From: a virus
Virus record (IMG/VR): IMGVR_UViG_3300025120_000055
Coordinates: 1 to 58,074 of that record
Length of the DNA stretch: 58,074 bases
Direction: 5' to 3' (one strand)
Numbering within the stretch: the first letter of the stretch is position 1; every line of letters begins with the position of its first letter. Below are positions 13,603-39,200 of this stretch, one piece after another. The notes beneath the pieces were generated by a model that saw nothing but the letters and a program-made list of their open reading frames with translations, was not told the origin of the DNA and did no database searches. A program made the translations under genes and the position numbers.

Positions 13603-13627
13603 ATAGGTCAATGTGGAGGTCAAATAT

Positions 13628-14860
13628 ATGTGGGGTTCGGCTATGATTGAAGATGACTTTGGTGAGGTCTATACCCACACCCCTGTTTCCACTGAAGAAA
13701 TCAAATCAATTAAAAAACAGCATCATTTTGCACCAAACGGTGATGGTTGGTTTGAAGCATCACTTGGATGTAATGCGGAAACTCTTGTAAAAAGATTAAG
13801 AAAAGCAAGAAGAAACAACAAAGACAATCGTAGTGAAATTGATAATTTCATCAATGATGTTAGGATGATTAAATCATTAGAAACTAATATGACAATCAAA
13901 TCTTTGTCTTGGGCTGAACCTTATGAAGACACTATCAAACAGTTAGGATTAAATGACCGTAAACTCAAAAGTCTTCGTAAGTTTGGTGAGACACGCTCTT
14001 TGAATCTCGAAAGAGCATGTATGATGTGGGATAAGGCAGAATTAACTCTTAAAATGCTAGATGAGCATGAAGATGTATGGGGTGCAGAAGAACAACAGGC
14101 TTGGGCTTCTGCTATGCAAGATAGAAGTTCTGCTAGAAAAATGTGGTCTAATTCACTTCATCCAATTGACAAACTTAGCAAGGCTGAGAAGAATTTTTTA
14201 GAATTTGCCTCTCAAGAATTACTCGAAAAAGGCCCAATGAAAGTAACTACCATTCGTAGTAATTTTTCCGATGCTGGTATGCTTAAAAAATCTCAAACTG
14301 ATAGAAAACTCGCTACACTCATGAACATGTATGGTGAAGATATGGATATTGTAAAAGGAGCACTACGAGGAACTTATGTTCGTATTTCCAGTGATGGACT
14401 GGTGTTAAAAGATGTGTGGTCTTATAGTGCTGGTTTTATTGATGCTGACGGATACATTACTATCACTGAGCGTGGTGAACCTCGTGCTGGAATGATAGCC
14501 ACAGGTGATAGAGGAAAAGTTCACTGTGAAGATTTGTACAAAACGCTAGACTGTGGTGTACTTTCTACTGATAATAAAGTGTACAAAGATTCTCAAAGAA
14601 GTCAACATAGATTACAATTCTATTCTAAGGCTGACTTGCGAAAGTTACTTCATGGGGTGTCCCCTCACTTAAAAATGAAGTCTACTCAAGCAAAGGCTGT
14701 ACTAGCCTATATTGATGAAAAAGATAAAACTAGAAAGCAAGAATTAAAACGCTTAGTAAGATACGAAAATTGGAAGGATGATAAGCGAAAATCTAACGCT
14801 TTGTTACAAGAATGGGGAATTGACATGGATACTATTGGTAAATACGGAGAGGGTCTATGA
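13628..14860 (+). CDS. LAGLIDADG-type homing endonuclease-like protein
   Basis: In this 410-residue protein, residues 268-275 are AGFIDADG, a clear LAGLIDADG helix, preceded by WSYS and followed by YITI strands, a GDRGKVHCEDLYKTLDCG unit and a LRKLLHGVSPHLKMKSTQAK ending typical of one LAGLIDADG half. Only one motif is present, so it would act as a dimer if active. Residues 1-250 are helical and include a winged-helix-like stretch (about 190-250) that may bind DNA. GGAGGT (13615-13620) selects ATG 13628 over GTG 13613. It could be a free-standing homing endonuclease inserted beside the lyase, or a DNA-binding regulator derived from one. Confidence 0.75.
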   Translation: MWGSAMIEDDFGEVYTHTPVSTEEIKSIKKQHHFAPNGDGWFEASLGCNAETLVKRLRKARRNNKDNRSEIDNFINDVRMIKSLETNMTIKSLSWAEPYEDTIKQLGLNDRKLKSLRKFGETRSLNLERACMMWDKAELTLKMLDEHEDVWGAEEQQAWASAMQDRSSARKMWSNSLHPIDKLSKAEKNFLEFASQELLEKGPMKVTTIRSNFSDAGMLKKSQTDRKLATLMNMYGEDMDIVKGALRGTYVRISSDGLVLKDVWSYSAGFIDADGYITITERGEPRAGMIATGDRGKVHCEDLYKTLDCGVLSTDNKVYKDSQRSQHRLQFYSKADLRKLLHGVSPHLKMKSTQAKAVLAYIDEKDKTRKQELKRLVRYENWKDDKRKSNALLQEWGIDMDTIGKYGEGL

Positions 14861-16647
14861 TGGCTGAAGAAAATCAAAGCATCGTTAGTAGATTTTTGTC
14901 TGCTCTATCAAGTCCATTTAGAAGAAGAACAACTCCTCAACCTCAGATGCCGTTGTATACTACTGGTATACAAGAGCCAGTTTTAGCACAAGGTATTACT
15001 TTACCAGCGCTCTATGCTGTCTCAAATGAAAATTTAATTCTCAGAACTGTTATTACAAAACTTGGTCAAGAAGTATTCCGTAGAGGTTACTACTGGGAAA
15101 AGAAGTTTCGTATGAAATGTGTTGAATGTGAAGAAGAGTTTCAACATGAAGTTGATGAATGCTCGACCTGTGGTGGAGAAGTTCGCAAACCTAACCCCGA
15201 CCAAGTATTGTATCCTAAGTGGTTACTTCAACAAGAAAACTCTATGGAACAAAGTTTTATGCAAATCCTTCATGAGATTGAGCGTGATTTGAATGTTGTA
15301 GATGATGCATTCTTGTTAATGATTAAAGAATACTATGTAGATGAAAAGACTGGTGAAGTACAATTCTATAGAATAAAAGAGTTAATTCGTGGTGACCCAA
15401 TCTTTATGCGAATTATCGCTGATAAGCGTGGTGTTCGTGGTGGGCGATACAAGATTTGTCGTATCCATCGTGACCAAGTTGCTTATCCGGGTCAAGAGCC
15501 AAAATGTAAAATATGTAACTCTCGTTTAGTTGATGCTCACTATGTTAACATGGCGGGTTCAGGTAAGAATCAATATTTTATGAAAGGTGAAGTTCTCCAT
15601 GTATCAAAATATAATCCGGGTAAATTATATGGGCGTGCTCCAGTAAACACGCTATGGCGACAAGCCATGACTCTTACTGCTATGGATAATTATATCTATA
15701 CTGCGTATCAAAAGCGTAGAATACCAAAGGGTATTGTGAGCGTCACTACAGATAATCTCGAATCTATGAAGTCTTTTTGGAAAGGCGTTGATGAAAAAAT
15801 GGAGCGTGACCCACACTACATTCCTAAAGTTGGTATCGAATCTTCTTCAGGCCGTGGTGGTGTGAACTGGGTCAAGTTTATGGATACACTTGAAGAGATG
15901 CAATACATAGCAGTGCGTGATGAAATAAGAAATCGTATTGCTGCTTTTTATGGTGTGTCTTCTATCTTTATGATTGATAATGGTAAATCAGGCGGTCTGA
16001 ATAACGAAGGTTTGCAGATTCTTGTAACTAATAGAGCAGTTGAATACGGACAAAAAGTGTATACAGATTTATTATTCCCTAGAATGTTGCGTGAATTAGA
16101 TGTCACTGATTGGAAATTAACTCTATATCCAAACGAAGAGGAAGATGAAATTACAAGACTACGCCGTGATGAAATGGAAGTTAATCTTGCTCAAAGAATG
16201 GCTATGCTTGGATATCAGCCTGAATTGTTAGAAGAAGGAGATAGAGATGTTAGGTTTAGTTACAAAAAGAAACCACCACAACCTGAAGGTCAACAACCAC
16301 AAGGTCAACCTCAACCACAAGGTCAACCTAGACAGGCTATGCCACCACAAGGTGGTATGCCTCCTAGACAGGCTATGCCACCTAGACAGGGTATGCCACC
16401 ACAAGGTGGTATGCCTCCACAAATGATGCAAGGTGGTAGAATGCCTCCACAAATGATGCCTCCATCACAGCCCGGAGGAGAGGGGATGGGAATCCGCACT
16501 CCACGCTCTCCGGCACGACCTCAACAAAGAGGTAGTCCGGGGGCGGGTGCACCTGTAACTAGTGTACAACAAAGAGGACTCCCTCCTAATATCCAACAAC
16601 AAAACAGTAGAACAATCCAAGATAGCAGACGCCTTAGAGGGGCGTAA
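14857..16647 (+). CDS. portal protein with two added zinc-binding sites
   Basis: This 596-residue HK97-type portal is the dodecameric ring through which DNA enters and leaves the head. The body has the expected order: N-terminal helices, a clip/stem region with AVRDEIRNRIAAFYGVSSIF and the LNNEGLQILV helix. Two Cys clusters are unusual: Cys87, Cys90, Cys101, Cys104 and Cys200, His203, Cys216, Cys219. From about residue 465 the tail is a Pro/Gln/Met repeat (MPPQGG, MPPRQ units) and disordered. ATG 14857 overlaps the previous TGA; the second ATG (14860) is equally possible. Residue numbers here count from 14860. Confidence 0.88.
   Translation: MMAEENQSIVSRFLSALSSPFRRRTTPQPQMPLYTTGIQEPVLAQGITLPALYAVSNENLILRTVITKLGQEVFRRGYYWEKKFRMKCVECEEEFQHEVDECSTCGGEVRKPNPDQVLYPKWLLQQENSMEQSFMQILHEIERDLNVVDDAFLLMIKEYYVDEKTGEVQFYRIKELIRGDPIFMRIIADKRGVRGGRYKICRIHRDQVAYPGQEPKCKICNSRLVDAHYVNMAGSGKNQYFMKGEVLHVSKYNPGKLYGRAPVNTLWRQAMTLTAMDNYIYTAYQKRRIPKGIVSVTTDNLESMKSFWKGVDEKMERDPHYIPKVGIESSSGRGGVNWVKFMDTLEEMQYIAVRDEIRNRIAAFYGVSSIFMIDNGKSGGLNNEGLQILVTNRAVEYGQKVYTDLLFPRMLRELDVTDWKLTLYPNEEEDEITRLRRDEMEVNLAQRMAMLGYQPELLEEGDRDVRFSYKKKPPQPEGQQPQGQPQPQGQPRQAMPPQGGMPPRQAMPPRQGMPPQGGMPPQMMQGGRMPPQMMPPSQPGGEGMGIRTPRSPARPQQRGSPGAGAPVTSVQQRGLPPNIQQQNSRTIQDSRRLRGA
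16290..16460 (+). repeat. short in-frame repeats in portal tail
   Basis: The end of the portal gene holds tandem, imperfect units built from CCACCACAAGGTGGTATGCCT and CCTAGACAGGCTATG, encoding MPPQGG, MPPRQA and similar blocks. The units differ by small changes, as expected from slippage and recombination. The encoded tail is Pro-rich, extended and probably disordered. Confidence 0.75.
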
Positions 16648-16692: not shown

Positions 16693-17037
16693 ATGGACTT
16701 ACTAAAAATGAATCCGATGGCTAGAAAACTAACTGTTCACACAGATGCATTTAACAAAGCATTAGAGAGCAGCGACCCATTTGCAGCACAGCAACATCTT
16801 AATGAAATTATGAAGTTTGCTGGATTTCTAAATGATGATATTCATGCTGCTGTTAAAAAAGCAGAATTACATGTTGGAGTTGTTCAACCGGGTGAAAGTA
16901 CAATATTAAAAATGAATAAAACTGGTCAGAAAAAAGGCACTTCAAAAGGTGCTGTTCTTCCCGGTACAATTAGGTCATCTCGTGTGGGTAATGGTTTCAC
17001 AAAACACTCCGGTACTTTTGGCCGCTATTCTCAATGA
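16693..17037 (+). CDS. small unknown protein after portal
   Basis: This 114-residue protein has an N-terminal helical half (MDLLKMNPMARKLTVHTDAF) that looks globular and a Lys/Gly/Thr/Ser-rich C-terminal half likely to be flexible. The family is not recognised. GAGG lies 8 bases upstream, just after a small hairpin. Placement between portal and the protease suggests a minor head or head-assembly role. Confidence 0.6.
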   Translation: MDLLKMNPMARKLTVHTDAFNKALESSDPFAAQQHLNEIMKFAGFLNDDIHAAVKKAELHVGVVQPGESTILKMNKTGQKKGTSKGAVLPGTIRSSRVGNGFTKHSGTFGRYSQ

Positions 17038-17047
17038 AGGTGAATAA

Positions 17048-17395
17048 ATGAGTGAAGAATCTGTTGCTGAGCGTTTAATGAATGCTCTAATAACAAAAAT
17101 GGAAAATATGGATTCCGACCTCCAAGTAATAAAAGCCGAAAACGCTCGACTAAAACAAGCAGTGAAAGACCCTATCACCATGTTAAGAAAAGCAGGTTTT
17201 GTTTCTGCTGCCACACCATTAAGTCAAGATGTCTCAACTGATGGATTTAGAGGAGATGTAGGGGTGGAAAACAACATGGATTCTGCTCTACTAAAAAGCC
17301 AAAACGAGTATACTAACAATGAAATCCACCTAATGTCGTGGGAAGAAATTCATGAAATGGCTGAACAAGCCAAATCAACCGAGGTGATACAATGA
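17048..17395 (+). CDS. small coiled-coil protein with scaffold-like C-terminal motif
   Basis: The N-terminal part of this 115-residue protein (about 5-45) is a coiled coil (LITKMENMDSDLQVIKAENA). The C-terminus contains MSWEEIHEMA (96-105), which closely matches MTWEEVHQLA (446-455) at the end of the protease-scaffold protein. Such a shared tail could bind the same surface, for example the inside of the capsid shell. AAGGTGA precedes the ATG. The next gene overlaps its stop (ATGA). The function is otherwise unknown. Confidence 0.65.
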   Translation: MSEESVAERLMNALITKMENMDSDLQVIKAENARLKQAVKDPITMLRKAGFVSAATPLSQDVSTDGFRGDVGVENNMDSALLKSQNEYTNNEIHLMSWEEIHEMAEQAKSTEVIQ

Positions 17396-18144
17396 AGCCA
17401 ATACCATCCCTAATAAGCAGACAAGCCCTAGACCTAATGAACAAAGCACAAGAACTAAGTGAAAGAATTAACATTTTCAAAGGAAAAGACTGTTGTTCTC
17501 AAATGACCAAGATGGGAACTTGTAAAAGTAGTTGTAATTCTATGGATAAAGATAAGAAAGATAAACAATTTTCTATTGCTGACTCTTTAGCACAAGATGC
17601 TGGTAAAGTTGCACCGGATGAATTTATGCCGGGAAGAAATATGCCAAAATTCAAACCCGGAGAAGATGCTAAACCCATGGGTGAAGCAGCAGAACTAGGA
17701 GGTAAAAATGAAAAACCTGAAAAAGAAATCTCTACTAAGCCAAGCGAAGGAAAACCTCGTGACCAAAAGCGTGGAGAAGCAGGTCGTGGTGTAAAGGTAA
17801 AGCGCCCCGGTTTCCGTGGTACTGAAGCCATGCCCTTAACTGATGCATCCGCTACTGGAACTAAAATGGAAAAAGCAGTAACAGAAGGCTCTCAACCCGG
17901 ATTTACTACAGCCTACGATTCAACACCTCAAGGTGTTATGTTTATGTCTGAAACTGGTGGTCAAACAAGAAACGCCTACTACACTACAAATCAATATCCA
18001 TACAACGCTCAAGATGTCGCTAACAAAGGTGCTACATCAGTGCAAGTAAGTCTTGACAAATTAGCCTCTATGTTGAACCCGCATGAAGGCGGAGGAGTCA
18101 GCCGTCTTGATGATGGCGGGGTATTGAGAGACAACCCCTATTAA
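17392..18144 (+). CDS. unknown minor head protein candidate with Cys cluster
   Basis: This 250-residue protein begins with an amphipathic helix, then a small Cys group (Cys34, Cys35, Cys44, Cys48) that may bind zinc. A long Lys/Glu/Gly/Pro-rich disordered middle follows (about 50-150), and the Tyr/Asn-rich end (about 185-250) looks more ordered. The family is not recognised. It overlaps the upstream coiled-coil gene (ATGA), so both are made together. Its place in the portal-to-protease interval suggests a structural or assembly role in the head. Confidence 0.55.
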   Translation: MKPIPSLISRQALDLMNKAQELSERINIFKGKDCCSQMTKMGTCKSSCNSMDKDKKDKQFSIADSLAQDAGKVAPDEFMPGRNMPKFKPGEDAKPMGEAAELGGKNEKPEKEISTKPSEGKPRDQKRGEAGRGVKVKRPGFRGTEAMPLTDASATGTKMEKAVTEGSQPGFTTAYDSTPQGVMFMSETGGQTRNAYYTTNQYPYNAQDVANKGATSVQVSLDKLASMLNPHEGGGVSRLDDGGVLRDNPY

Positions 18145-18156
18145 GGGGGCGATTGA

Positions 18157-21100
18157 TTGATTGAAACACCTACTGACTGGTATTATAGAAGTAGAAATGA
18201 ACTTCTAAAATCTGTGTTAGACGGCCATGATTGGTTAAACTCATTAGGTGAGTATAAATTTGCTAAGATGAATTTAGAAGCACACAATGAGATAATACCA
18301 CAAACGACATTAGATGATATAACTAACTCTATTCTAAAAGCAGCCAATGAGCAAACTTTTGAAAGAGGCGCTGAAATGCGCTTAGGTTCACATCCTTGGC
18401 AGAATAGAGTTCGTGAAAGAGTCTTACATGAAGTAGCGGCGTCGTATCCCCATGTTGAGTTTGCACAAGGCCAGCACTTTGCTGAATCTCATCCTCATCA
18501 TCCGAAGCATCACCCTCTTCGTCAAAAAAATACCATCACTGGTAGGTCGAAAATGATAGAAAAATTAAGACAATTCTACTTACCTTCTGCACCGGGTGAA
18601 AGAAGTTTGTCATACGACTATAAGATGGCTGAAAGAGGGAAAGAACAGTTAGAGCGTAAAAATGAAAATCCTTCTGTTATAGGTAAAAAAAGATTCGACA
18701 CTAACGAAAATAAAGAAGTAGAACATCATAATTTCTTAGGCCCATTAAATGACCATTATCTACATGATATTTATTATGATAATTTTTTGGAGTGGCAAAG
18801 AAATAATCCTGACACTGTAAAAGAAATGATAGAAAAGTTTCCTAAACCGGAAGAACATGAGCATGCTTTACAATTAAAACACTTTGAAGAGTTTGCTGAT
18901 AGTTTAGAGAGTGACCAAAATCATGGGACACTTTACGACCCAAAAGAAAATTTAACTGAAGCAGAAATTCAAGAGATAACATATAGTGGTGATTTTGAAT
19001 CTTTAACCCCTTTTCCAATTAAAGAAGGTTTAGGTTATGATGGTTACTTGTATGGTCTTGAGTTTCTTCCACCTATTGATAGATTCAAAGTGCTAAAACA
19101 CCTTCATGAAAAAGGAACAGATGCTCATGATGCTCAAACTATACAACTATCAAATGGTAAAACAATAAGTGCTGGTAGGATAAAAAGAAATCTTGCTCAA
19201 CGATTTACTGGTGAGTTTGACCGCTATATGCGACCTCAACACATGCATGGAGCGAATGTTAAGAAACACTATGAAACAATAGATGACGACCCAAGAGATA
19301 GCGATAGAGTCATGAAGCAATCATTACTCGATGCTATGAGATTAGTTCCTCATGAAGAAGGTAGCACTATTAGTGTATACGATAAATTACTAGAGCAGTA
19401 TAATACTATGTTGAATAATCATAGAGATGAGGGTACAGAAAGTAGTCTTACTCATTTACCAATTAGAGGAATGATGCAAGGTAGAAAAATAAACAAAGGT
19501 GCTATTCAGCACCCAACTAGTCATGGAGAAGGTATACTTCAAGAATTACAAACTTTAGATGATGACCCGTTTACATTTACAGATTTGAATACTATGTTAG
19601 GTTTGTTAGGATACAATAGTGACATGACTGCTATGGATAATCATCCGTTATTACTAGACTTTGAAAACCCGTTGGTAGACCATGATAAAGTAAAAGAAAT
19701 TATCATGAAGGCTCAAGATATGTCGCAAGTATATCAACAACAAAAACCAATTCGTAATCACGATTTCTTCCATCATGGTGGAAAGAATGGCCCTGATATT
19801 AACGATATTCCTGAAGAAGAAAGAGAGCATTACCTCACAGATGACGAAGGTAACATCATAGGATTAGGGGCACACTTTGCTGATGAGTTCCATCATCAAG
19901 GTGGTATGGGAAGAAATGTTTTACATTACTTAGAAATGATGCACGACTCTCTACCAAAAGACAATAATGGGTATTCTATTATTGGTAGAGTAGATGGAGG
20001 AGAATTAATTCCTAATCCAAAAACAGTAGGACTATGGGGAAGATATCTCCCCTCATTATTTTCTAAAGATAGTGGAACTCATCAAGGCCCACACGGTATT
20101 TCATCTCTTTGGGACTCTTCTAGTCATATAAGAACTAAACCAAGAAATAACAAAAATCTACCTCATAGGCAAATGTCGTCTTTGATAGGTGGTTATACTA
20201 ACTTAGTTAGATATATGACTGATAATGAAAGAAAACAATACTTCAGTGTAGGTCAATCTAACAGGGGAGAGTTAGGTGGTAGGAATTTCTTTACTACAAA
20301 TCCTATCAACGCAATAGGTGGTAAGGGTGGTAAGGCTACTCAGACCATAAACAATCAAATCCACAGTGGGAGATTAATTACTTCGGGTGGAAGATATCAT
20401 CCGCCTCATGAGCCAATGAAAAAGAAACAACGCCTTGGAAGAAAAGATATCCGTGCTGATTCAAAATTAGCCCATAGTGAAGGTAACTTAACAACATACA
20501 GAACTATACAAGGGCATAAGAAATTAGCAGGTAAAGATTTACCTCTTACTAATCAACAACAACAACAAATTGATGAATTAGACCAAAAGTATGATGAAAT
20601 AAGTAATATAATAATGAATTTTGAAGAAGGTTCTGAAGAATATGGTAATCTTAATTTTCAATTACATGATATAGAAGGTAAAATTGAAGAAATAAATAAT
20701 CAGGCTGCTAAAGAGAATAAAAATTCCTATAATCAAATATCTGATAACGCTCAGATAAAAGATGAAAAAGACCATGAAGCCATAATGATTATGGCGAAAA
20801 AATTAAGACCTGAGTTTTTGAAGAAAGACCCTGATGCGTTTAATCCTGAGATGCCTGACAAGTTCTTAGCCAACACTTCTCGTTTGATGAGAGATGCTAA
20901 TATGGCTTTATTGAGATTACCTCATTCGGTACATGGACTATTTACTCATGGATATGGAGAATATGAAGATGTTCATCAAAGCGCTGCTGAGTTATTAACA
21001 GATGATGAAGATGAAGTTGTATCACCACATCACACTATTGCTAGTGTTCTAGGTAATGCTGGTAAACTAATTGAACCTACCATGTCGCTAGCAAAAGTTA

Positions 21101-23571
21101 GAGAGTTACTAAATTTACCTGATGATGATGCACATAATGATATGATTGAAAGATTGTTAGAAGGTCGAATGTCTCCTGTTAAAGTTTTAAAACACGGTGA
21201 TTTGTTAGGCACTGGGGTTAGTTTTGCTGGTGAAGAGGCTAACAGTATGTTTACTACAGACGACCATCATTCAGTAATAAATGGTATATTAGATGAGCAT
21301 ATTTCATCAAGACCTCACCACACTGATTATTCTCGAAGGGCGAGTGCTGACAAAAAATTCGGTAGAAACTTAGGTGAAAAATATGCAAAACATCTTGGCT
21401 TAATAGACAGATTGTTTAGACCTAATCAACAAAACCAATTAGACATGCATGGTTTATCTCGTGTTCAATTATCTCATCGTGATGGTGAATATGGTACAGG
21501 TAAGAATGCGCTTGGAGCAACAACAGGCGATATAGATGGGCCAGTAAATAGAGCCAAGAGTTTAGTTCATGACCTTTATTTGTTCGACTCTCAAGAAGCA
21601 CAGACCATGGATAAAGTAGTCGCCCCTGCTACAAAAGTCAAACTGGCTGGTTATAGGTCACAACCTATTCACCCAGCCACTTCTACAGGTGCATCAGTTC
21701 AAGACATGTATATTTCAGGTGGTATGGATAGTGGATATCCAATGACACCATCAGTCGGTATGGAGTTCCCCGGTAACAAAAAGGCTGTAGCCGGAACAAA
21801 TACAGAAGAGCAATTCTTACATTCTATCCCTGAAGAAGTGATGAATGACCTCCATGGTGAAGAGGCCGTGCAACAGGTCTTATCATCTAATTATCAAGTT
21901 CCAGTTAACACTACTAATATGAGTAGAACAAATGTAATGGCGCTACCAGCCAACTCCGATATGTCGTTGTTTACAGCAAGCGACCCTACTGAAACTCTTA
22001 CCGTATTGATGAATCCTGAAGCATTGTTAAAAGAAGATAAATCAAAACCACCACCCATTCTACCTATGCATAGAATATTTTCTTTGAAAGATTTTGATGC
22101 ACTTAGAGGATTTAGTGGGGATTGGGTTGTATCATCTTTCTATGATGGTGAGAGAATGATAATCACTAGAAAGAGTAACAAAGTTTCTGCTTACGATGAA
22201 AGTAACGATAATGTAATGTTAACTACTGATGATAAAAAACACTTGAAAGCACTAACTGAGAAAAACTTCATGGTAGACGCTGTTAGAATGAAAAACAATA
22301 TCCATCTCATAGATATCCTAGAATATGATGGGACTAACATAGCAGATATGACCGTAAAAGAGAGATTGAAAGTTCTTCGAGGTCAATTTGACAGTCATGA
22401 GCATGTATTAGTTCCCAGCCCGTTTGATACAAGAATTACTGAAGATGGTGGTTTAAAGTCTACTGTTGAGAATTTACAAAACGAACATAAGCAACTATTA
22501 CTTCGTGATGCTAACTCTACATACATGCGTGGTGAGCGTAGACATCCTAAGTGGTTTTTACTTCGTAAGAACAAGAATGTTAGTTTCATTATATTAGATG
22601 TTAGAGGTAAAGGCCCGTACACTTATCGCTTAGGGGCAGGGCCACTTGACTCCGAAGGCTTTGGTAATAGAGGTGTAGATTATGAAGGTAAACAATATCT
22701 TGATGTTGGAACAATCAAAAGCCCTAAGCCATTCAACGAAGGTGATACTGTGTCTATATCTGTATCGGGTGTTAAGAAAAGAAATCGAAATGGTAAAACA
22801 TTGTATGATGTAACCTCCTCAAAGATAGTAGGAGAAGCAGAAGCAGAAAGCCCTGCGAGCCTAGAGACTCTATCTTTACTAGCAAAATCCCACCCTGTGA
22901 TACCAGTGGTGTATGATATAGTCCTCAAAGAAAATGAAATATCAGTCGTTTTTGAGGGGTTAGACGAGGTAGTTTACAAAGCAGAATCATCTCATACTGG
23001 TAATTGGGTACACTCTCCTAAATCAATAATAGGTGAATTAAGTCATTCTGATTATACTTTACAGTTGGCTGAAAGCGTTAGACCACTATGGAGTCAGGCT
23101 GTATCTTTGATGTTAAAAGGTGTGGATAAGAAAAAAGATAGTGTAGTTGAAGAGATTATTCCTCAACCCACATATCATTCAATGCATGATAAGAAAAATA
23201 GAGAACATAGTGAAGAACAGTCACATGGTATAATAGATGCTGATGATGAGAAAAACCTACTCAAAGTAAAGATGCTAAAGACTCTAAGTAGAATAGCAGA
23301 TTTTTCAGATAGAATTGATGCTTTACAAAAAGAAAAAATGTCAGGTGGCCCCGGTGCTCGTGGTATGGGTATCAATGTTGGAAGCGCTATAGAATCACCA
23401 AGAGGCCCAACTAGTCTTACCAGTGAAGAGAGTGTACCTGATTGGGATATGATTGAGCGACCAACTGAAGACCCCGAAGAAGAATACCCAATTGCCATGA
23501 TGAGGAGACTTAAGCAGAAAAATGCTAAGCAGTCTCCTACTTATGAAGCAGAATCAGATTATGAGGCATAG
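18157..23571 (+). CDS. 1804-residue probable head protein with degenerate DNA-ligase-like domain
   Basis: A TTG start follows GGGGGCGAT. Residues 1-1290 are unrecognised, very His/Asp-rich, with a coiled coil near 800-870. Residues about 1300-1560 resemble the catalytic core of ATP-dependent DNA ligases. FYDGER (1328-1333) aligns with motif I KxDGxR, DAV (1374-1376) with motif III DGE, LIDILEYDG with motif IIIa, LLLRDANSTY with motif IV and PKWFLLRKNK (1464-1473) with motif V. An OB-like part (about 1475-1560, GKGPYTYRLGAGPL, then VGTIKSPKPFNEGDTV) follows. The nucleotide-accepting Lys is Phe1328, the motif III Glu is Val1376 and the motif V lysines are altered, so it should not be an active ligase. 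Position between portal and protease fits a minor capsid or internal protein. Confidence 0.65.
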   Translation: MIETPTDWYYRSRNELLKSVLDGHDWLNSLGEYKFAKMNLEAHNEIIPQTTLDDITNSILKAANEQTFERGAEMRLGSHPWQNRVRERVLHEVAASYPHVEFAQGQHFAESHPHHPKHHPLRQKNTITGRSKMIEKLRQFYLPSAPGERSLSYDYKMAERGKEQLERKNENPSVIGKKRFDTNENKEVEHHNFLGPLNDHYLHDIYYDNFLEWQRNNPDTVKEMIEKFPKPEEHEHALQLKHFEEFADSLESDQNHGTLYDPKENLTEAEIQEITYSGDFESLTPFPIKEGLGYDGYLYGLEFLPPIDRFKVLKHLHEKGTDAHDAQTIQLSNGKTISAGRIKRNLAQRFTGEFDRYMRPQHMHGANVKKHYETIDDDPRDSDRVMKQSLLDAMRLVPHEEGSTISVYDKLLEQYNTMLNNHRDEGTESSLTHLPIRGMMQGRKINKGAIQHPTSHGEGILQELQTLDDDPFTFTDLNTMLGLLGYNSDMTAMDNHPLLLDFENPLVDHDKVKEIIMKAQDMSQVYQQQKPIRNHDFFHHGGKNGPDINDIPEEEREHYLTDDEGNIIGLGAHFADEFHHQGGMGRNVLHYLEMMHDSLPKDNNGYSIIGRVDGGELIPNPKTVGLWGRYLPSLFSKDSGTHQGPHGISSLWDSSSHIRTKPRNNKNLPHRQMSSLIGGYTNLVRYMTDNERKQYFSVGQSNRGELGGRNFFTTNPINAIGGKGGKATQTINNQIHSGRLITSGGRYHPPHEPMKKKQRLGRKDIRADSKLAHSEGNLTTYRTIQGHKKLAGKDLPLTNQQQQQIDELDQKYDEISNIIMNFEEGSEEYGNLNFQLHDIEGKIEEINNQAAKENKNSYNQISDNAQIKDEKDHEAIMIMAKKLRPEFLKKDPDAFNPEMPDKFLANTSRLMRDANMALLRLPHSVHGLFTHGYGEYEDVHQSAAELLTDDEDEVVSPHHTIASVLGNAGKLIEPTMSLAKVRELLNLPDDDAHNDMIERLLEGRMSPVKVLKHGDLLGTGVSFAGEEANSMFTTDDHHSVINGILDEHISSRPHHTDYSRRASADKKFGRNLGEKYAKHLGLIDRLFRPNQQNQLDMHGLSRVQLSHRDGEYGTGKNALGATTGDIDGPVNRAKSLVHDLYLFDSQEAQTMDKVVAPATKVKLAGYRSQPIHPATSTGASVQDMYISGGMDSGYPMTPSVGMEFPGNKKAVAGTNTEEQFLHSIPEEVMNDLHGEEAVQQVLSSNYQVPVNTTNMSRTNVMALPANSDMSLFTASDPTETLTVLMNPEALLKEDKSKPPPILPMHRIFSLKDFDALRGFSGDWVVSSFYDGERMIITRKSNKVSAYDESNDNVMLTTDDKKHLKALTEKNFMVDAVRMKNNIHLIDILEYDGTNIADMTVKERLKVLRGQFDSHEHVLVPSPFDTRITEDGGLKSTVENLQNEHKQLLLRDANSTYMRGERRHPKWFLLRKNKNVSFIILDVRGKGPYTYRLGAGPLDSEGFGNRGVDYEGKQYLDVGTIKSPKPFNEGDTVSISVSGVKKRNRNGKTLYDVTSSKIVGEAEAESPASLETLSLLAKSHPVIPVVYDIVLKENEISVVFEGLDEVVYKAESSHTGNWVHSPKSIIGELSHSDYTLQLAESVRPLWSQAVSLMLKGVDKKKDSVVEEIIPQPTYHSMHDKKNREHSEEQSHGIIDADDEKNLLKVKMLKTLSRIADFSDRIDALQKEKMSGGPGARGMGINVGSAIESPRGPTSLTSEESVPDWDMIERPTEDPEEEYPIAMMRRLKQKNAKQSPTYEAESDYEA

Positions 23572-23612: not shown

Positions 23613-25001
23613 GTGCTACGAACAAAGCGGAGAGAACTTGAACTGCTCAAAGGGTCTAACGACCTTATTGTTGCAGGTTATGCCTCAGTTGAACTAGTAG
23701 ACAAACAAGGAGATTTAATTACAAGGTCAGCATTGAAAGACGCTTTCAAAAAATTCATGTCAGACCCCATGTACAGGAATGTTCAATTAGCGCACTCAAA
23801 TATTCAAGTTGGAGAAGTAATATCAAATTATACTGACAATCAAGGGAGGTTATGGAAAAGCGAAGTTGACGATGCTGGAATGTTTGTTGTAGTAAAATTA
23901 CGAAACGACATTGAGAAAGCACGAGAAGTAGCATCCGAGATACGAAAAGGAAATCTAACAGGATTTAGTATCGGAGGTCAAGCATTCAAAAGAGTTAACA
24001 AAAGCGATAAAAACCATGGCTCTTATCAAGAAATCTCAAAATTAGAATTACACGAAATAACAATATGCGAAAAAGGAATAAACCCGGAAGCCACATTCAA
24101 TATACTAAAAGAAGATAAAAAAAACAAGGTGAATAAAATGACTGATGAAGTAATGGAACAAATGAACGATGTACTAACCCGCTTAGAAGGGCGACTTGAC
24201 TCTATGGAAAAAGGTGAAATGCCACCCGGACTCAAAGAGCACATGAAGAACAAAAAAGGTAAGAAAGACCACGACGATGACGACGATAAAAAAGACGACA
24301 AAGAGAAGGGTAACTACATGAAAGATGAAGATGACGACGATAAAAAAGACGGCAAAAAGAAGTCTGAATATTCTGATGTTATCACTGCTGAATACCTAGA
24401 TTGGATGGAACATACTCTAAAGTCTGCTGGTGTTGACACTGGCGCTGCTCGTACTCACTTTGATACAGTAGCAAAAGCAAACCTTGGTTCTACCCCTGAA
24501 GATATAGGAGACGGTGCTAACTACTTTGCAGGACAAGTAAAAGGTCGTGTTCAAGAAGGTGGCAGCCCATCTACCAACGCTATCCAGCGTGCTGGTCTAA
24601 GTGGCAAAGGTGGAAAAGTTGAGAAATCTGATTTCATTAACGCTTCTCAAGTAGATTCTCACAGATTAGAAGAAGCATACGGTGTCTTTAAGGCTGCAAA
24701 GCAAGAAGAAGAGTTCCGTAAGTCTCTTGAACAGAACTTTGAGGGTCGTTTCGCACAAGAAAATCAAGCAGAAATAGCAAAAGCACAAGCACAAAACTTC
24801 GACGCTCGTGCTCCTCTTGATGAAGTTATGAAGGCTCTTGGGGCACTCAATGACCGAATCGACAACATCTCTAGCGGTGCTGGCGAAACAATCGCAAAAT
24901 CTGCTGGTTCCAATGTTGAAGTACCAAGTACACAAGACTTGGCTAACATGACATGGGAAGAAGTACATCAACTCGCTGGAGGATTATACCGAGGCGAGTG
25001 A
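23613..25001 (+). CDS. prohead protease (S78-like) fused to scaffold
   Basis: Residues about 1-165 of this 462-residue protein are a herpes/HK97-type serine protease: His61 in VQLAHSN, nucleophile Ser119 in GFSIGG, and LELHEITICEKGINPEA, as in the Peptidase S78 group. A Lys/Asp-rich linker (about 205-250) follows, then a helical scaffold part ending in MTWEEVHQLA (446-455). The protease cleaves scaffold and probably capsid protein during head maturation. The GTG start has GGA about 8 bases upstream. An internal start at 24138 can make the scaffold alone. Position directly before the capsid gene is the standard one. Confidence 0.88.
   Translation: MLRTKRRELELLKGSNDLIVAGYASVELVDKQGDLITRSALKDAFKKFMSDPMYRNVQLAHSNIQVGEVISNYTDNQGRLWKSEVDDAGMFVVVKLRNDIEKAREVASEIRKGNLTGFSIGGQAFKRVNKSDKNHGSYQEISKLELHEITICEKGINPEATFNILKEDKKNKVNKMTDEVMEQMNDVLTRLEGRLDSMEKGEMPPGLKEHMKNKKGKKDHDDDDDKKDDKEKGNYMKDEDDDDKKDGKKKSEYSDVITAEYLDWMEHTLKSAGVDTGAARTHFDTVAKANLGSTPEDIGDGANYFAGQVKGRVQEGGSPSTNAIQRAGLSGKGGKVEKSDFINASQVDSHRLEEAYGVFKAAKQEEEFRKSLEQNFEGRFAQENQAEIAKAQAQNFDARAPLDEVMKALGALNDRIDNISSGAGETIAKSAGSNVEVPSTQDLANMTWEEVHQLAGGLYRGE
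24138..25001 (+). CDS. nested scaffold protein from an internal start
   Basis: Inside the protease gene and in the same frame, ATG 24138 (Met176) is preceded by AAGGTGA at ideal spacing (AAGGTGAATAAAATG), a stronger site than that of the full gene. Translation here would give a 287-residue protein lacking the protease: acidic/basic linker, helical scaffold and C-terminal motif. Phage lambda C/Nu3 and other phages make scaffold from a nested gene in this way. The strong site suggests scaffold is made in excess over protease, as assembly requires. Confidence 0.7.
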   Translation: MTDEVMEQMNDVLTRLEGRLDSMEKGEMPPGLKEHMKNKKGKKDHDDDDDKKDDKEKGNYMKDEDDDDKKDGKKKSEYSDVITAEYLDWMEHTLKSAGVDTGAARTHFDTVAKANLGSTPEDIGDGANYFAGQVKGRVQEGGSPSTNAIQRAGLSGKGGKVEKSDFINASQVDSHRLEEAYGVFKAAKQEEEFRKSLEQNFEGRFAQENQAEIAKAQAQNFDARAPLDEVMKALGALNDRIDNISSGAGETIAKSAGSNVEVPSTQDLANMTWEEVHQLAGGLYRGE

Positions 25002-25006
25002 AACTC

Positions 25007-25044
25007 AGGACAATAAAAAAAAATATGGAGAGATAAATATGGCA
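25007..25044 (+). promoter_or_regulatory. duplicated leader before the capsid gene
   Basis: AGGACAATAA (25007-25016), an A-run and ATGGAGAGATAAATATGGCA (25025-25044) precede and include the capsid start at 25039. The same two blocks recur before the next gene at 26211 and 26235. The leader contains a strong ribosome site (GGAGA) and a 3-codon ATG-GAG-AGA-TAA mini-frame. It probably ensures very high translation. Confidence 0.65.
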
Positions 25045-26211
25045 AGAAATTATGTAAGAACAGTAACAGACATGGAAAGATACTACTACGGAGCAGGTAA
25101 CTCAATGGGCTATACCTACACAGGAAGCGAACTATTGAAGTCCGATGCACCAATGCTCAGCACAACTGCTGGAACATACCAAGCAATCTACGGTAGAAAA
25201 GTTTGGTCACAACTAAACCAAGAATTTAACGCATTTTCAATTCTACCTAAGAAACCATGGGAAAGAAGTGGATGGAGAGTTATCACAGCAAAGCCAAACG
25301 GTGGAGCAGTTCACGGTGGAATAGCAGAAAACGGTACACTACCTGAAACTGTCAAACCAACCTTCCAACATGTAGCAGCAAAACCAAAGACAATCGCTCA
25401 CTCATTCGATGTAAGCGAAGTCGCAGTATTCCTTGCTGACAAAGATGACGGTATGGGTGACATGCGCTCAGTTCTAAAAGAAGAAATGGGTAAGCACCAC
25501 GCTGAAATGGTTAACCTAATGCTACTACAAGACACCAGCACAGTCGCTGGAAACAACTTTGAATCACTTGACAGAATCACTGCCGGTGACGGTGCAGGAA
25601 CAGGTCTAACTGGTCTAAGAACTACTGGCGGAAACGAGCATGTAGACGCAGCAGCAGACCTAGATATCTACAGTATTGACCGAAGTGCAAACGCTTGGTC
25701 ACATGCTGAGGTAAACTGCGCAGCAGACACTCAAGCAGCAAACAAGCGTGTTCTATCATTAGACCACCTAGACACAATCTTCCAACAAGTTTGGGAGCGT
25801 GGTGGTAATCCAAAGGTTATCCTAACTGGATATGATACTCTAATGAGACTACAACAACTTCTACAAGCACAACAAAGATTCATGGAAGAGAAGAGAGTTA
25901 CACCAACCTACAACGGTGTTAAGGGTGTTCCGGGTATTGAAGCCGGTTTCATCGTAGCAACCTACAATGGTGTACCAATCATCCCATCTAAGGATGTTGT
26001 CGATGCTGACGGACTAAGCAGAATGTACTTACTAGACACTGACTACATGTACTTCAGTACAGCAATACCAACTCAATACTTTGAGTCCGGTATCGAAACT
26101 GGTGACCCATTCGCAATCAACCGCCTCGGTCAAGAGGGACTTTACCGAACAATGGGTGAAATATGGACTACTTTCTTTGGAGCACAAGCAAGCATTCGTG
26201 ACTTGAAGTGA
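25039..26211 (+). CDS. major capsid protein (HK97 fold)
   Basis: This 390-residue protein forms the icosahedral shell. Evidence is its place directly after protease-scaffold, typical length, and an HK97-like layout: N-terminal arm, long-helix region with ADKDDGMGDMRSVLKEEMGK, beta-rich P-domain and a C-terminal segment with ESGIETGDPFAINRLGQEG. Codon choice is distinct: by my hand count Asn is AAC in about 15 of 18 cases here but in only about a third in terL, as expected for the most highly expressed gene. The leader before it is duplicated ahead of the next gene. Confidence 0.87.
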   Translation: MARNYVRTVTDMERYYYGAGNSMGYTYTGSELLKSDAPMLSTTAGTYQAIYGRKVWSQLNQEFNAFSILPKKPWERSGWRVITAKPNGGAVHGGIAENGTLPETVKPTFQHVAAKPKTIAHSFDVSEVAVFLADKDDGMGDMRSVLKEEMGKHHAEMVNLMLLQDTSTVAGNNFESLDRITAGDGAGTGLTGLRTTGGNEHVDAAADLDIYSIDRSANAWSHAEVNCAADTQAANKRVLSLDHLDTIFQQVWERGGNPKVILTGYDTLMRLQQLLQAQQRFMEEKRVTPTYNGVKGVPGIEAGFIVATYNGVPIIPSKDVVDADGLSRMYLLDTDYMYFSTAIPTQYFESGIETGDPFAINRLGQEGLYRTMGEIWTTFFGAQASIRDLK

Positions 26212-27791: not shown

Positions 27792-27901
27792 CACGATGTA
27801 AATTCCTTGATGATTGGTTTGATGCTAAATCAAAACAAGTAGATAAGAAAGAGTCTAAGACTAAAAAATGTTTTGTAACGGGGGATAAGAAATGCCAGTA
27901 G
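27788..27901 (+). CDS. 37-residue basic Cys-containing protein
   Basis: This short frame starts with an ATGA overlap on the zinc-ribbon gene and ends inside the first codons of the connector gene (stop 27899-27901, next ATG 27892). Its product is Lys/Asp-rich with Cys4, Cys28 and Cys36. The double overlap fits the local gene packing and fills a 100-base interval otherwise empty. It may be a real microprotein or simply a coupling frame that carries ribosomes to the connector start. Confidence 0.5.
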   Translation: MTRCKFLDDWFDAKSKQVDKKESKTKKCFVTGDKKCQ

Positions 27902-29454
27902 TATTTAACCCCGGAGAAGCAGAAACAAGACCACTAGACCCCACAGCCATTGTATACACCACAGCACAGAAAGTTGCTGATTTCCTATCAATTGGCCCTC
28001 AAGATGCTGTATTAGTAAGTGCAGATAGTACATCAACTGCTGTGTTTGTCACAGGGGCTGATTATAGAACTATTGGATTTCAAAAGGATGACACTATACT
28101 CATTTACTCCGACGCTGACCCGTTAGGTCTTGAAAGAGTTATTACTTCTATAGGAACAAGTGCTAGTGGGGTGCAACTAAACTTTGCTGAAACTATTACT
28201 GCCGCTGACTATCAAGCGGCTGACAACGCTTATGTTCAAAACACAGCGTCGTTTACTAACGGTAAAACTCGTGGTATGAAGAAATCTATAGTAGAGGCTC
28301 GTATCAAAGAGGCTCAAGATAAGATTGACAACTTAACACACAATGCTTGGCGACCTTATCTTGTTAGCGCTGAGTACATCAACTTCGATACATACAAACC
28401 ATACAGAAGACGATACTATACTGATTATGTAGGAACAGCCCCTCTTTTGTTTAGAAATGTTCAACAAATCCTTCGTTTAGAACTATGGCAAGGTGATGAT
28501 TATCGTGAGATATGTAGCGCTGAAGTTCGGATTAAATTACCTGAAGATGTGAGAGCACTGTCAGGTTCTATCGTTATGTCGCCGGGCAACGGAACGGCTG
28601 CTACACTAACAATCGGAACGGCATCTAATCAATGGCGTGCTGATTTTGATGCTGCTACTACTGGTCAAAATCTTGCTGATTTAATTAACAAAGAAGATAG
28701 AGTAAATAAAGCAGCAGTGGAATTTGCACCCGCATTTACATTAGAAGGCTCTACAGCGAATGTAGCACTGAACAATGAATTCTACGCTAGTGCTAACGCT
28801 GATTACGGTACTGGTCAAGTCAAAGTAACAAGTATGCGTGCAGGTAAAGGCGGAGAGGTTTGTTCAATAGTTGTCACTGACAGTAATATAGAACTTGCTC
28901 AAGTAGCAACCCACACCGCCAATGTCACTAGCGTAGTTAACACTACAGTCAATGTAGATAGCACTGAAGCGTTTGCCGCAGCCGGTGTTTGTGTGAAAGG
29001 GGATACTGTGTTTAGATATACGGGTAAAACTAATACATCTTTTACAGGATGTGTTATTGTAATAGGCTCTCCTTTGGGTGACATTTCCGGTGCTATTTCT
29101 CAATCTACTTTGGTCATTGACTTACAGGGTGGTAGTAGTAAAGGCGACAATGCAAGGCTTCGTGACTGGTGGCTTGACCATGAGATTGGTCAGATTTATT
29201 TCAATAACTCCTATCCTTTCTTTGAGTGGAATGCAATTAAGTGTTCTTACATCTATGGTGAAAGATATCTTGAGAAGGCTATAGAAGAAGCCGCTACAAA
29301 AATGGTGGCTTGTGATGTCTTGATGTCCGATGACAGAAGTGTTTTAATCCCCGAAGGTACACAGAATGTAGATTTAACTTCTAAGATTCAGTTACTGAAA
29401 GCAGAAGTAGACAGTATACTTGCTAGATATATCGAGATAATAGTATTTGAGTGA
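27892..29454 (+). CDS. head-tail connector (adaptor) with inserted beta modules
   Basis: In this 520-residue protein, the first 215 residues and the last 100 resemble a connector: helices around KKSIVEARIKEAQDKIDNLT, and a terminal ERYLEKAIEEAATKMVACDV and LKAEVDSILARY helix pair typical of adaptor proteins that dock under the portal. Between about 215 and 410 lie beta modules: one with TTGQNLADLIN and GKGGEVCSIVVTD, and one with VNVDSTEAF, then YTGKTNTSFTG. These resemble phage surface modules and make it far longer than a normal adaptor. It begins the neck genes. Confidence 0.65.
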   Translation: MPVVFNPGEAETRPLDPTAIVYTTAQKVADFLSIGPQDAVLVSADSTSTAVFVTGADYRTIGFQKDDTILIYSDADPLGLERVITSIGTSASGVQLNFAETITAADYQAADNAYVQNTASFTNGKTRGMKKSIVEARIKEAQDKIDNLTHNAWRPYLVSAEYINFDTYKPYRRRYYTDYVGTAPLLFRNVQQILRLELWQGDDYREICSAEVRIKLPEDVRALSGSIVMSPGNGTAATLTIGTASNQWRADFDAATTGQNLADLINKEDRVNKAAVEFAPAFTLEGSTANVALNNEFYASANADYGTGQVKVTSMRAGKGGEVCSIVVTDSNIELAQVATHTANVTSVVNTTVNVDSTEAFAAAGVCVKGDTVFRYTGKTNTSFTGCVIVIGSPLGDISGAISQSTLVIDLQGGSSKGDNARLRDWWLDHEIGQIYFNNSYPFFEWNAIKCSYIYGERYLEKAIEEAATKMVACDVLMSDDRSVLIPEGTQNVDLTSKIQLLKAEVDSILARYIEIIVFE

Positions 29455-36220: not shown

Positions 36221-39200
36221 ATGCCAATTATGTTACAGTCGAATCACGCTCTTTTCTTTGATGGAGTTAGCGATAGCGTTATCATTCCTCAAGGTAGTTT
36301 TAGTAGACTAGGAAGAGATTATGATTCGAGCAATAAAAGTTCTAGTGATATAATTGCTACAAGTTCTCAAGGTAACTCGGGTAAAGGTGCCATAAGTGAT
36401 GTTTTTGGTAAAGGTCTTGCTATCGAAGCGTGGGTTGTTCCTGATTGTGGTGGTGTTATATTATCAAAAGATGGTCAATTCAGATTATCAATAGGTAGCG
36501 TAGACACTCCCGGGCCTGTTGAATTTGAAGTCAATATACAAGCACCCGCTACTGGTAAAATGAAAGTGTTTGCGAGAACGGCGTTACCTGAGACAAATAA
36601 TTTCAACGGCCATGTTTATCCTGTTACCACCTTTGGTGGGCTAGATGATTCGTATAACCGCTTTGATGGTAGTAAAGATAAAGCAACATCACTATCGCTA
36701 AATCAAAGACCATTGTATCATATTGTTGCTGCTTTAAATAATAACGCAGCAGAAATATATGTCAATGGGGCTTTAATGTCCCAGCAAAGAATTCCCAAGG
36801 GTTCGGAAATTCTTGAGAATGACTCTCATGTTTACATCGGTGGTAAGGGTGGTGAGTTTAGAGGTGTTATAGAAGGTATACATGTTTCATCATCTTTTAA
36901 TCCTGAAATGACAACTCGCAACCCTGCTTTACTGACGGAGAAATCAATTTCTCTTTTTAGATTTGAAGAGCCTATCTCTACTTTTGACTCGGTGTATACT
37001 ATCAATAGTATTGACTCTACATATAGCGACACAGCAGTTACTGAAAATGACTTAACTGCTATCACTATATCTACTACTGAAGCGCAATCTTTGGCTAATT
37101 TATTGACTGGTAAGACTGTAACAGATTATGTAGATTTCACAGTCTCACCTTATTCCACTGGTAATTATTCTGTCGTTGACAGATTCACCACACCCGGTAC
37201 TACTAACAAAAGAAGTATACCGCATGTACCATATAATCTTCTAATTAACCCCGGCTCTATCAATCAAGATACTAAGAAGCCAAACGGTAAACCACCCGAG
37301 CGTGTAAGACTTCATAGAATTAATATTTCAACAGGTGAAATATTAGTATCGAGTATCCACTTAGATTTTCCCAACTCAACTAATGGAGATGGGTTAAGAC
37401 CGATACTACACAGCACTCATACTTCTGCTAATGGTGCTAATTCTTTTGTTGTTATAGCGGCTGACTATCTAATTGAAAACGGCACAGGTCGCCCTTATCA
37501 ACCACCTCATTTATCTACTCAAATTATCGACAGAACAGGGCAGATGTTGATTGATGAAGGTAATTATGAACAGCATGCCTTAGCGTATTCTAGCAGAATG
37601 GCTACTACTACGAACAGCCCTAATAACCCGTTTAAAGTTACTTGGCCCGCAGATATTGACGAACTGTTCCAAGTAGGGCACTCAGGAAGGCATACTCTAA
37701 ACCATGTCGAGGGTCATCATTATCTAAGAACTATGCCTCGTGCTAATAACGAAGCATTAGACCAACAAGCAGGTAATTCAGACATTCTGACTGTGATGTA
37801 TGATGAAACAGCGAAGGGTATAGATAAATTATTTCCGGTAAACAGTAAAATAGATTACTATAGAGAAGTTGCTCATTTTGAAATTGTCGATGCGGTTAAT
37901 TCCAGCATAGTTCACGAAGTGGTAACAAACGGATTAACAGGTGCTAATAAAAAACTTATAGCCATAGGCGGGACAAAAGCCAATTCAGTTTCCTTTAATC
38001 CTTTACCGTTTGTTCTCAAAGGCCCAGTTCCTATAGATATAAACAATGTTGATGCTGATTTAAATAAGTTTCACTTACATCCTTCTAGTAAAAGTAGAGT
38101 AGCATTACTTAGTGTTCCTACTCTTGCTAGTCGTGGTATCGCTCCTTATGTAGAGGTTCATTACAACGCTATAGATTTTTCAGGTGCATCAATGAGTAAA
38201 ACAACTCCTATGATAATGATAGAAAAAACTGTACCTGCGTCTAATCTACAGATAGGCGGGGCGTATATTGTAGATGATATAGCAACTGATGTCGCCGCTG
38301 GTAATGCAACGCTATTTGCACCCGGTGGTTATATTGATGTTGGAAAAACAAAAGAAGGTAACTTAGGCCAAGTTGCTTTTAGTCATTCTTTAATTGGAGA
38401 TAATAGCGAAGGGTTCGAGGCTGATGTAGAGTTAGATGAGCGATTAACTCCTCAAAATTTCACAGCAACGGCTAATTTAGGTAACACGACTCCACAAAAC
38501 ATTTCTTCTTCTCAAACTACAAAAGCCGAACATGACTCAGTGTTTCATAAATTATTTTTAGAAAGAAATGAAATTGAAAGTGATGTTAGTAAAGTTGTAG
38601 AGTTTTCAAGGCAAACACCTACTACAGTACACGGTAGTCCATCAGCAGGTCAGTTTGATGTTGGTATAACTTCTTCAGCATCATCCACACATGAAATGTT
38701 TGATATCATTGATAATTTACAGATAGGACACTTACAAGGAGTCACTCATCGTTTCTTTATTCAACCCTCGGATAGAAGAAGAACTAATCAATTACAACAT
38801 GTGTTTTCACTACAAGATAGAATTAACGATGCTAATCATGCAATTATACTATTTTTAATGAGTACGGCTAGACTTCGTGGTATAGAACAAATAGAAAACG
38901 ATAATGGTAGATTTACTACCATATCTGCCGTAGGTCTTACAGATGTGGCTGCTACTAGGAGCGTTAACGAGTTAGCATCAGGTAGTCCTGACTCCCATGT
39001 AGTGAAAGAAATAGACCCTAATGCTCCAGTAGTAAGTGTAACTCTTGGTGGTGTAGGGCAAGGAGGTTTTGATACTAAACCATCTTTTGACCGTAGCACT
39101 CTAGCCAACTTACCTTACAGTTCTCGAAGAGGTTTTTCTTGTTTAGCAACTAAACTTAGAGTAGACCGTAACCCAACTAACAACTTTCAATTTATCGAAG

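Follow-up and report, generated by a model that had tools for sequence, protein, structure and literature searches.

The 58,074-nucleotide stretch of viral DNA analysed here (the window) carries, between its portal and prohead protease genes, an open reading frame for an 1804-aa protein whose C-terminal part is predicted to fold as the core of an ATP-dependent DNA ligase and in which, as in its relatives throughout the family, ligase catalysis has probably been lost. We propose, at a probability of about 0.55, that this is a conserved head-morphogenesis protein of magroviruses and that its recruited, inactive ligase core serves as a binding platform. The start site of the frame lies at the same place in orthologues, and the full-length orthologues (101 distinct sequences) are 1699-2147 aa long. 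The gene and the parts of its product are as follows, with motif limits taken from the family alignment and part limits in the main from AlphaFold2 (AF2) models:

18157-23571, plus strand: pseudo-ligase gene, open reading frame of 1804 aa with a TTG start
18157..21726, plus strand: residues 1-1190, mostly helical globular part in the AF2 model, unmatched in Pfam and among solved structures
22045..22599, plus strand: pseudo-nucleotidyltransferase (ligase adenylation) domain, residues ~1297-1481, from PF01068, a PDB profile, AF2 and Foldseek
22132..22155, plus strand: motif I remnant S-S-F-Y-D-G-E-R, residues 1326-1333, with F1328 at the Lys position
22138-22140, plus strand: codon TTC of F1328, at the catalytic Lys position of motif I
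22276..22284, plus strand: motif III remnant D1374-A1375-V1376, replacing D-G-E
22309..22329, plus strand: motif IIIa region, I1385-D1386 to D1391
22489..22506, plus strand: motif IV remnant K-Q-L-L-L-R, residues 1445-1450, replacing E-G-x-x-x-K
22552..22566, plus strand: motif V remnant W-F-L-L-R, residues 1466-1470, replacing W-L-K-x-K
22600..22881, plus strand: OB fold, residues ~1482-1575, in the AF2 model
22882..23130, plus strand: small alpha-beta part, residues ~1576-1658, 3' of the OB fold in the AF2 model and retained in the clade that lacks the OB fold
23362..23487, plus strand: conserved C-terminal tail (ESPRGPTSLTSEESVPDWDMIERPTEDPEEEY), residues ~1736-1777, from conservation among representatives

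The ligase-type core and the parts around it

The initial annotation had read a ligase-type order of motifs in the C-terminal part of the protein, and this reading is borne out by Pfam, NCBIfam, a PDB profile search and the predicted structure. It thus withstood the two tests that the annotation had set as able to overturn it, by profile match and by structure prediction. In a Pfam scan, PF01068 (DNA_ligase_A_M) matched residues 1370-1466 with an E value of 6.9e-5 and a full-protein score of 23.1 bits, which falls slightly below the curated cut-off of 26.2 bits; the score rose to 28.4 bits for the domain scanned alone and to 30.9 bits, passing the cut-off, with frame neighbours summed. The same model matched 35 of 39 relatives, and NCBIfam models of ATP-dependent ligases matched the 1804-aa protein with a best E value of 5.4e-6. 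When the family profile was compared with PDB sequences it found the Thermococcus DNA ligase 4eq5 (E 2.6e-6), in an alignment in which motif I and motifs IIIa to V are collinear.

The structural evidence agrees with the profiles. An AF2 model of residues 1285-1658, built with 39 natural relatives, has a pLDDT of 81 and the strand order of a nucleotidyltransferase (NTase) domain followed by an OB fold, and its top Foldseek matches in the PDB are DNA ligases of Thermococcus and Pyrococcus (E 2.7e-14 to 2e-13, probability 1.00). The large rmsd against full-length ligases probably reflects the relative placement of the NTase and OB parts. On the model, then, residues ~1297-1575 are an ATP-dependent DNA-ligase core composed of NTase and OB fold; a chance match to ligases is ruled out by the profile, structural and family-wide matches together with independently fetched loci. 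Nothing in the Pfam scan of the 1804-aa protein corresponded to the N-terminal DNA-binding domain of ligases. With the archaeal ATP-dependent DNA ligases (Thermococcus and Pyrococcus; 9dfa, 6wbo, 4eq5, 2cfm) the protein shares NTase, OB fold and collinear motif regions, but it differs from them in having no catalytic Lys, no motif III Glu and no first motif V Lys, in being fused to an unrelated N-terminal part of ~1200 residues, and in being encoded among head genes.

In a viral structure library the pseudo-ligase model matched an 827-aa viral protein far better than anything else (BFVD entry A0A516LT18, E 2.5e-26, 23% identity); viral ligases and capping enzymes came next.

The N-terminal part is confidently modelled (residues 1-1190, pLDDT 81.7, pTM 0.76) and resembles nothing in the collections searched: Foldseek found no PDB match with E<=0.001 (best E 1.5), profile comparison with PDB sequences gave no match for residues 1-700 and chance-level matches only for residues 700-1284, and there was no consistent match in Pfam. 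Between clades this part is ~20-30% identical. It had been described as a His-rich part of 1300 residues, which is fair in that the protein's His content exceeds that of every other window protein checked. The lead is small, though, and the enrichment moderate (4.8% over the whole protein, 6.4% in residues 1-700).

Conservation is strong in the C-terminal tail (ESPRGPT...PDWDM...). No other six-frame open reading frame of the window (>=60 aa) contains either the SPRGPT or the PDWDM motif, and with no second occurrence a protease site common to other window proteins is ruled out. The tail is possibly a docking peptide.

Catalytic positions, selection and DNA binding

Scans of viral contigs yielded 282 stretches coding for relatives, with identity down to about 40%; motif counts were made on 209 distinct fragments, 172-175 of which span each motif. 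The motif I Lys is present in none of 172 distinct sequences, its position being held in relatives by Trp, Met, Tyr, Phe, Leu, His, Gln or Ile. The motif III Glu (V1376 in the window) is likewise absent from all 173 sequences, while the motif III Asp is present in 172 of them. At motif IIIa the adenine-stacking aromatic is mostly lost, Phe occurring in only 42/173 sequences, and Asp1386 is kept in 167/173. The motif IV Glu persists in 32/171 sequences (the window has K1445-Q1446), Gly is absent among the residues listed for the second motif IV position, and the motif IV Lys position carries Arg instead in 169/174. The first Lys of motif V is found in 0/175 sequences and the second in 19/175, Arg occupying the latter position in 103/175; the window has L1468-x-R1470. 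All the replacements first noted in the window (F1328 with its TTC codon, D-A-V for D-G-E, K-Q for E-G and L-x-R for K-x-K) were thus confirmed, as was the earlier argument that the motif I change is not a read error: a frameshift or read error at this site is ruled out by the same loss in all 172 distinct sequences.

Amongst all these changes six residues, R1333, R1403, D1451, Y1456, G1459 and W1466, are invariant, and they would either hold the fold or serve in some other role. The extreme conservation of some loop residues could be read as the mark of a protein that is still an enzyme, with its active site rearranged or its chemistry changed, and a Lys does lie one residue ahead of the motif I position in 39/98 sequences. 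This shifted Lys is in a non-canonical register, though, and is not conserved; the motif III Glu and first motif V Lys are missing everywhere, the motif IV Glu and second motif V Lys are missing in most sequences, and the adenine-stacking position is mostly non-aromatic. We regard a surviving enzymatic activity as very improbable. Catalysis by the pseudo-ligase has probably been lost family-wide, and from these residue counts neither adenylation nor nick sealing is expected.

Loss of catalysis has not been accompanied by decay of the domain. The dead NTase is under strong purifying selection: its pairwise dN/dS is about 0.01-0.1 in pairs with measurable dS, which is lower than that of residues 1-1280 in the same pairs, and in a comparison of 49 representatives few stretches of the protein are as well conserved. 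A recent pseudogene is ruled out by this selection together with open frames of 1699-2147 aa. The OB fold has had a different history. It is missing as a block from 22 of the 49 representatives, which form one clade (support 0.99) that retains the NTase and the parts following it; midpoint rooting, in a tree whose root is not otherwise established, makes the OB fold ancestral and lost once.

Ligase cores bind nicked DNA, and in minimal ligases the OB fold is required for DNA clamping. The dead ligase could still bind nicks, ends or the packaged genome and so guard the termini during packaging or after ejection. Consistent with this are the location of the gene in the head module, the invariant R1333, the conserved basic residues at the motif IV and second motif V positions, and the slightly basic NTase and OB parts of the window's own protein (pI 8.8 and 8.1, respectively). 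Arguing against it, the OB fold is gone from a large clade in which the NTase is retained, and 43 of the 49 representatives have an NTase whose net charge is negative or zero. We therefore consider retained DNA binding of this kind unlikely, if still the alternative to be taken most seriously. The suggestion in the initial annotation of a head protein that binds DNA ends or nicks is accordingly upheld as to its place in the head module and weakened as to nick or end binding. That one clade does without the OB fold and that most NTases are not positively charged overall lead us to prefer a protein-binding platform to a DNA clamp or nick sensor; because of the Arg residues at the motif IV and second motif V positions and the invariance of R1333, some contact with phosphate or DNA may persist.

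Gene neighbourhood, virus group and the published magrovirus ligase

The genes flanking the pseudo-ligase gene in the window are these:

14857..16647, plus strand: portal protein gene (phrog_18178, E 1.6e-63), related to the HVTV-1/HCTV-1 portal
16693..18144, plus strand: three small conserved genes lying from the portal gene to the pseudo-ligase gene, in the same order in the loci listed
23613..25001, plus strand: prohead protease (Peptidase_S78, by Pfam), directly downstream of the pseudo-ligase gene
25039..26211, plus strand: major capsid protein (SU10_MCP; phrog_24667, E 1.5e-58)

The placement between portal and protease first given for the gene is correct, with three small genes intervening on the portal side. 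The order TerL, HNH-like gene, portal, three small genes, pseudo-ligase gene, prohead protease and capsid protein is recurrent. A gene of 250 aa lies directly upstream of the pseudo-ligase gene in 145 loci, the other 12 having no upstream marker in the contig, and the prohead protease is the next downstream marker in 156 of 157 loci. To these can be added loci collected without using the pseudo-ligase itself: in all 138 loci that were retrieved through alignments of the protease and capsid protein alone and that extend far enough upstream, the pseudo-ligase lies directly upstream of the prohead protease, and in all 138 the motif I Lys is absent. From this gene order we infer that the product is a virion or head protein.

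The HNH-endonuclease-like gene (13613-14860, phrog_5046), in the interval between TerL and portal, is present family-wide, which is an unusual stability in a homing-type endonuclease. Further downstream, beyond the head and tail genes, the window holds a frame for a 6068-aa protein (36221-54427). Pfam gives this protein one match above cut-off, to a LamG/ConA-like lectin domain close to its N-terminus, and it may be an adhesion or fibre protein of giant size. ARAGORN calls a tRNA-Cys at 28709-28797 on the minus strand, inside the opposite-strand frame 27892-29454, and the call may be a false positive.

PolB is encoded in 10/10 related near-complete records and a chaperonin in 18/18 magrovirus-like records tested (G001-G037), and both genes have been reported for magroviruses (PMC10768690). 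The window, a 58-kb fragment, has a portal related to that of Druskaviridae haloviruses. On the basis of PolB, chaperonin, portal and the link to the literature described below, the pseudo-ligase gene belongs to viruses of Poseidoniales (magroviruses). The chaperonin, as an aside, could help to fold very large head and fibre proteins. Two scans of 84,980 prokaryote genomes found no host or provirus copies of the pseudo-ligase protein, and no relative of it was found in annotated phage records.

The closest cultured relatives found are the haloviruses, and the genes gp113-gp115 of HVTV-1 (Druskaviridae) fill the same slot from portal to protease. There the slot holds a 1313-aa protein with Zeta-toxin kinase and ADP-ribosyltransferase domains (HVTV-1 gp115, L107:13623-17564); the large slot protein of HCTV-1 (L109:14929-18561) has a Zeta-toxin kinase domain. 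Payloads of the Zeta-toxin and ADP-ribosyltransferase types are known from ejected phage proteins, and by analogy the magrovirus protein might be an internal head protein that is ejected and acts in the host, its pseudo-ligase being a decoy or a competitor or partner of replication and repair factors. Comparison of the N-terminal part of the 1804-aa protein with gp113 and gp115, its sensitivity limited by single-sequence templates, detected no homology, however, and in the 1804-aa protein Pfam detects neither the ligase N-terminal DNA-binding domain nor any other effector domain. An ejected effector seems to us quite unlikely.

Almost all magroviruses are reported to encode a DNA ligase in their replication block (PMC10160649, PMC10768690, PMC12999244), and in one account the magrovirus "ATP-dependent DNA ligase" gene is placed beside the prohead protease (PMC7318539). 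Since that gene is set in the same position as the one described here, the two are very probably the same, a match made by adjacency in the text and not by accession. The published ligase is described as part of the replication module, whereas the gene we describe is in the structural module and its product has no catalytic residues; this inactivity has apparently gone unnoticed in the literature. The dead domain is present in 42 of 42 records, the window included (13 of the records exceed 95 kb and many of the others are fragments), and only one, G035, has a second match to PF01068. This magrovirus-like record of 102 kb encodes, besides the dead domain, a phage-type ligase of 379 aa (L186:642-1781) with intact motifs KFDGVR, DGEL, EG and KVK, and its detection indicates that the search finds real ligases. 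A search of 10 records for an NAD-dependent ligase and of 15 records for RNA-ligase families gave no match.

The view that no example of such a protein had been described was mistaken, both because this gene had almost certainly already been listed as the magrovirus ligase (PMC7318539) and because the middle domain of the poxvirus (vaccinia) protein A20 is an inactive ligase made of NTase and OB fold (PMC11142717). A20 (A22 in MPXV), compared here by description only, likewise contains a dead ligase core within a larger viral protein, but it is a polymerase processivity factor of eukaryotic viruses whereas the pseudo-ligase is encoded among the capsid genes of tailed viruses of archaea. In related records PolB is encoded elsewhere than the head module in which the pseudo-ligase gene sits, which argues against a role in a polymerase holoenzyme. 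Dead viral ligases are thus already known. What is new is to meet one in the structural gene module, in tailed viruses with archaeal hosts, and to find it universal in the sampled group; new too are an N-terminal fold with no match among solved structures and the revision of an annotation from which replicative independence has been argued.

A proposed role in the head and its implications

Our preferred reading is as follows. An archaeal-type ATP-dependent DNA-ligase core would have been recruited before the sampled magroviruses diverged; it would since have become incapable of adenylation and of nick sealing, and its OB fold would later have been lost in one clade. The 1804-aa protein would be made together with the portal, protease and capsid protein and would enter the procapsid, where the novel N-terminal part would perform most of the structural work. 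The dead NTase would then provide a rigid platform whose ligand is most likely a further protein of the head or of packaging and may also be the DNA backbone; docking of the 1804-aa protein to a partner may fall to the conserved C-terminal tail.

A more speculative extension, and one we rate as a long shot, is that a ligase-derived, non-catalytic head component fixed order-wide might sense features of the packaged DNA such as nicks, ends or a completed headful. If this were true, archaeal tailed viruses would possess a ligase-based sensor of packaging or its termination.

For the binding platform that we favour, the pseudo-ligase is a clear case of exaptation from enzyme to structure within the head module, joined to a fold of ~1200 residues that is conserved group-wide and unmatched among solved structures. 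Magroviruses are abundant ocean viruses, and their "DNA ligase" has been cited as part of a near-complete replication kit and as an argument for little dependence on the host (PMC10768690, PMC10160649). Since the sole recognisable ligase in most of the records examined is the dead domain of the head module, the viral nicks are probably sealed by the host ligase, and rare magroviruses may seal them with a separate ligase of their own.
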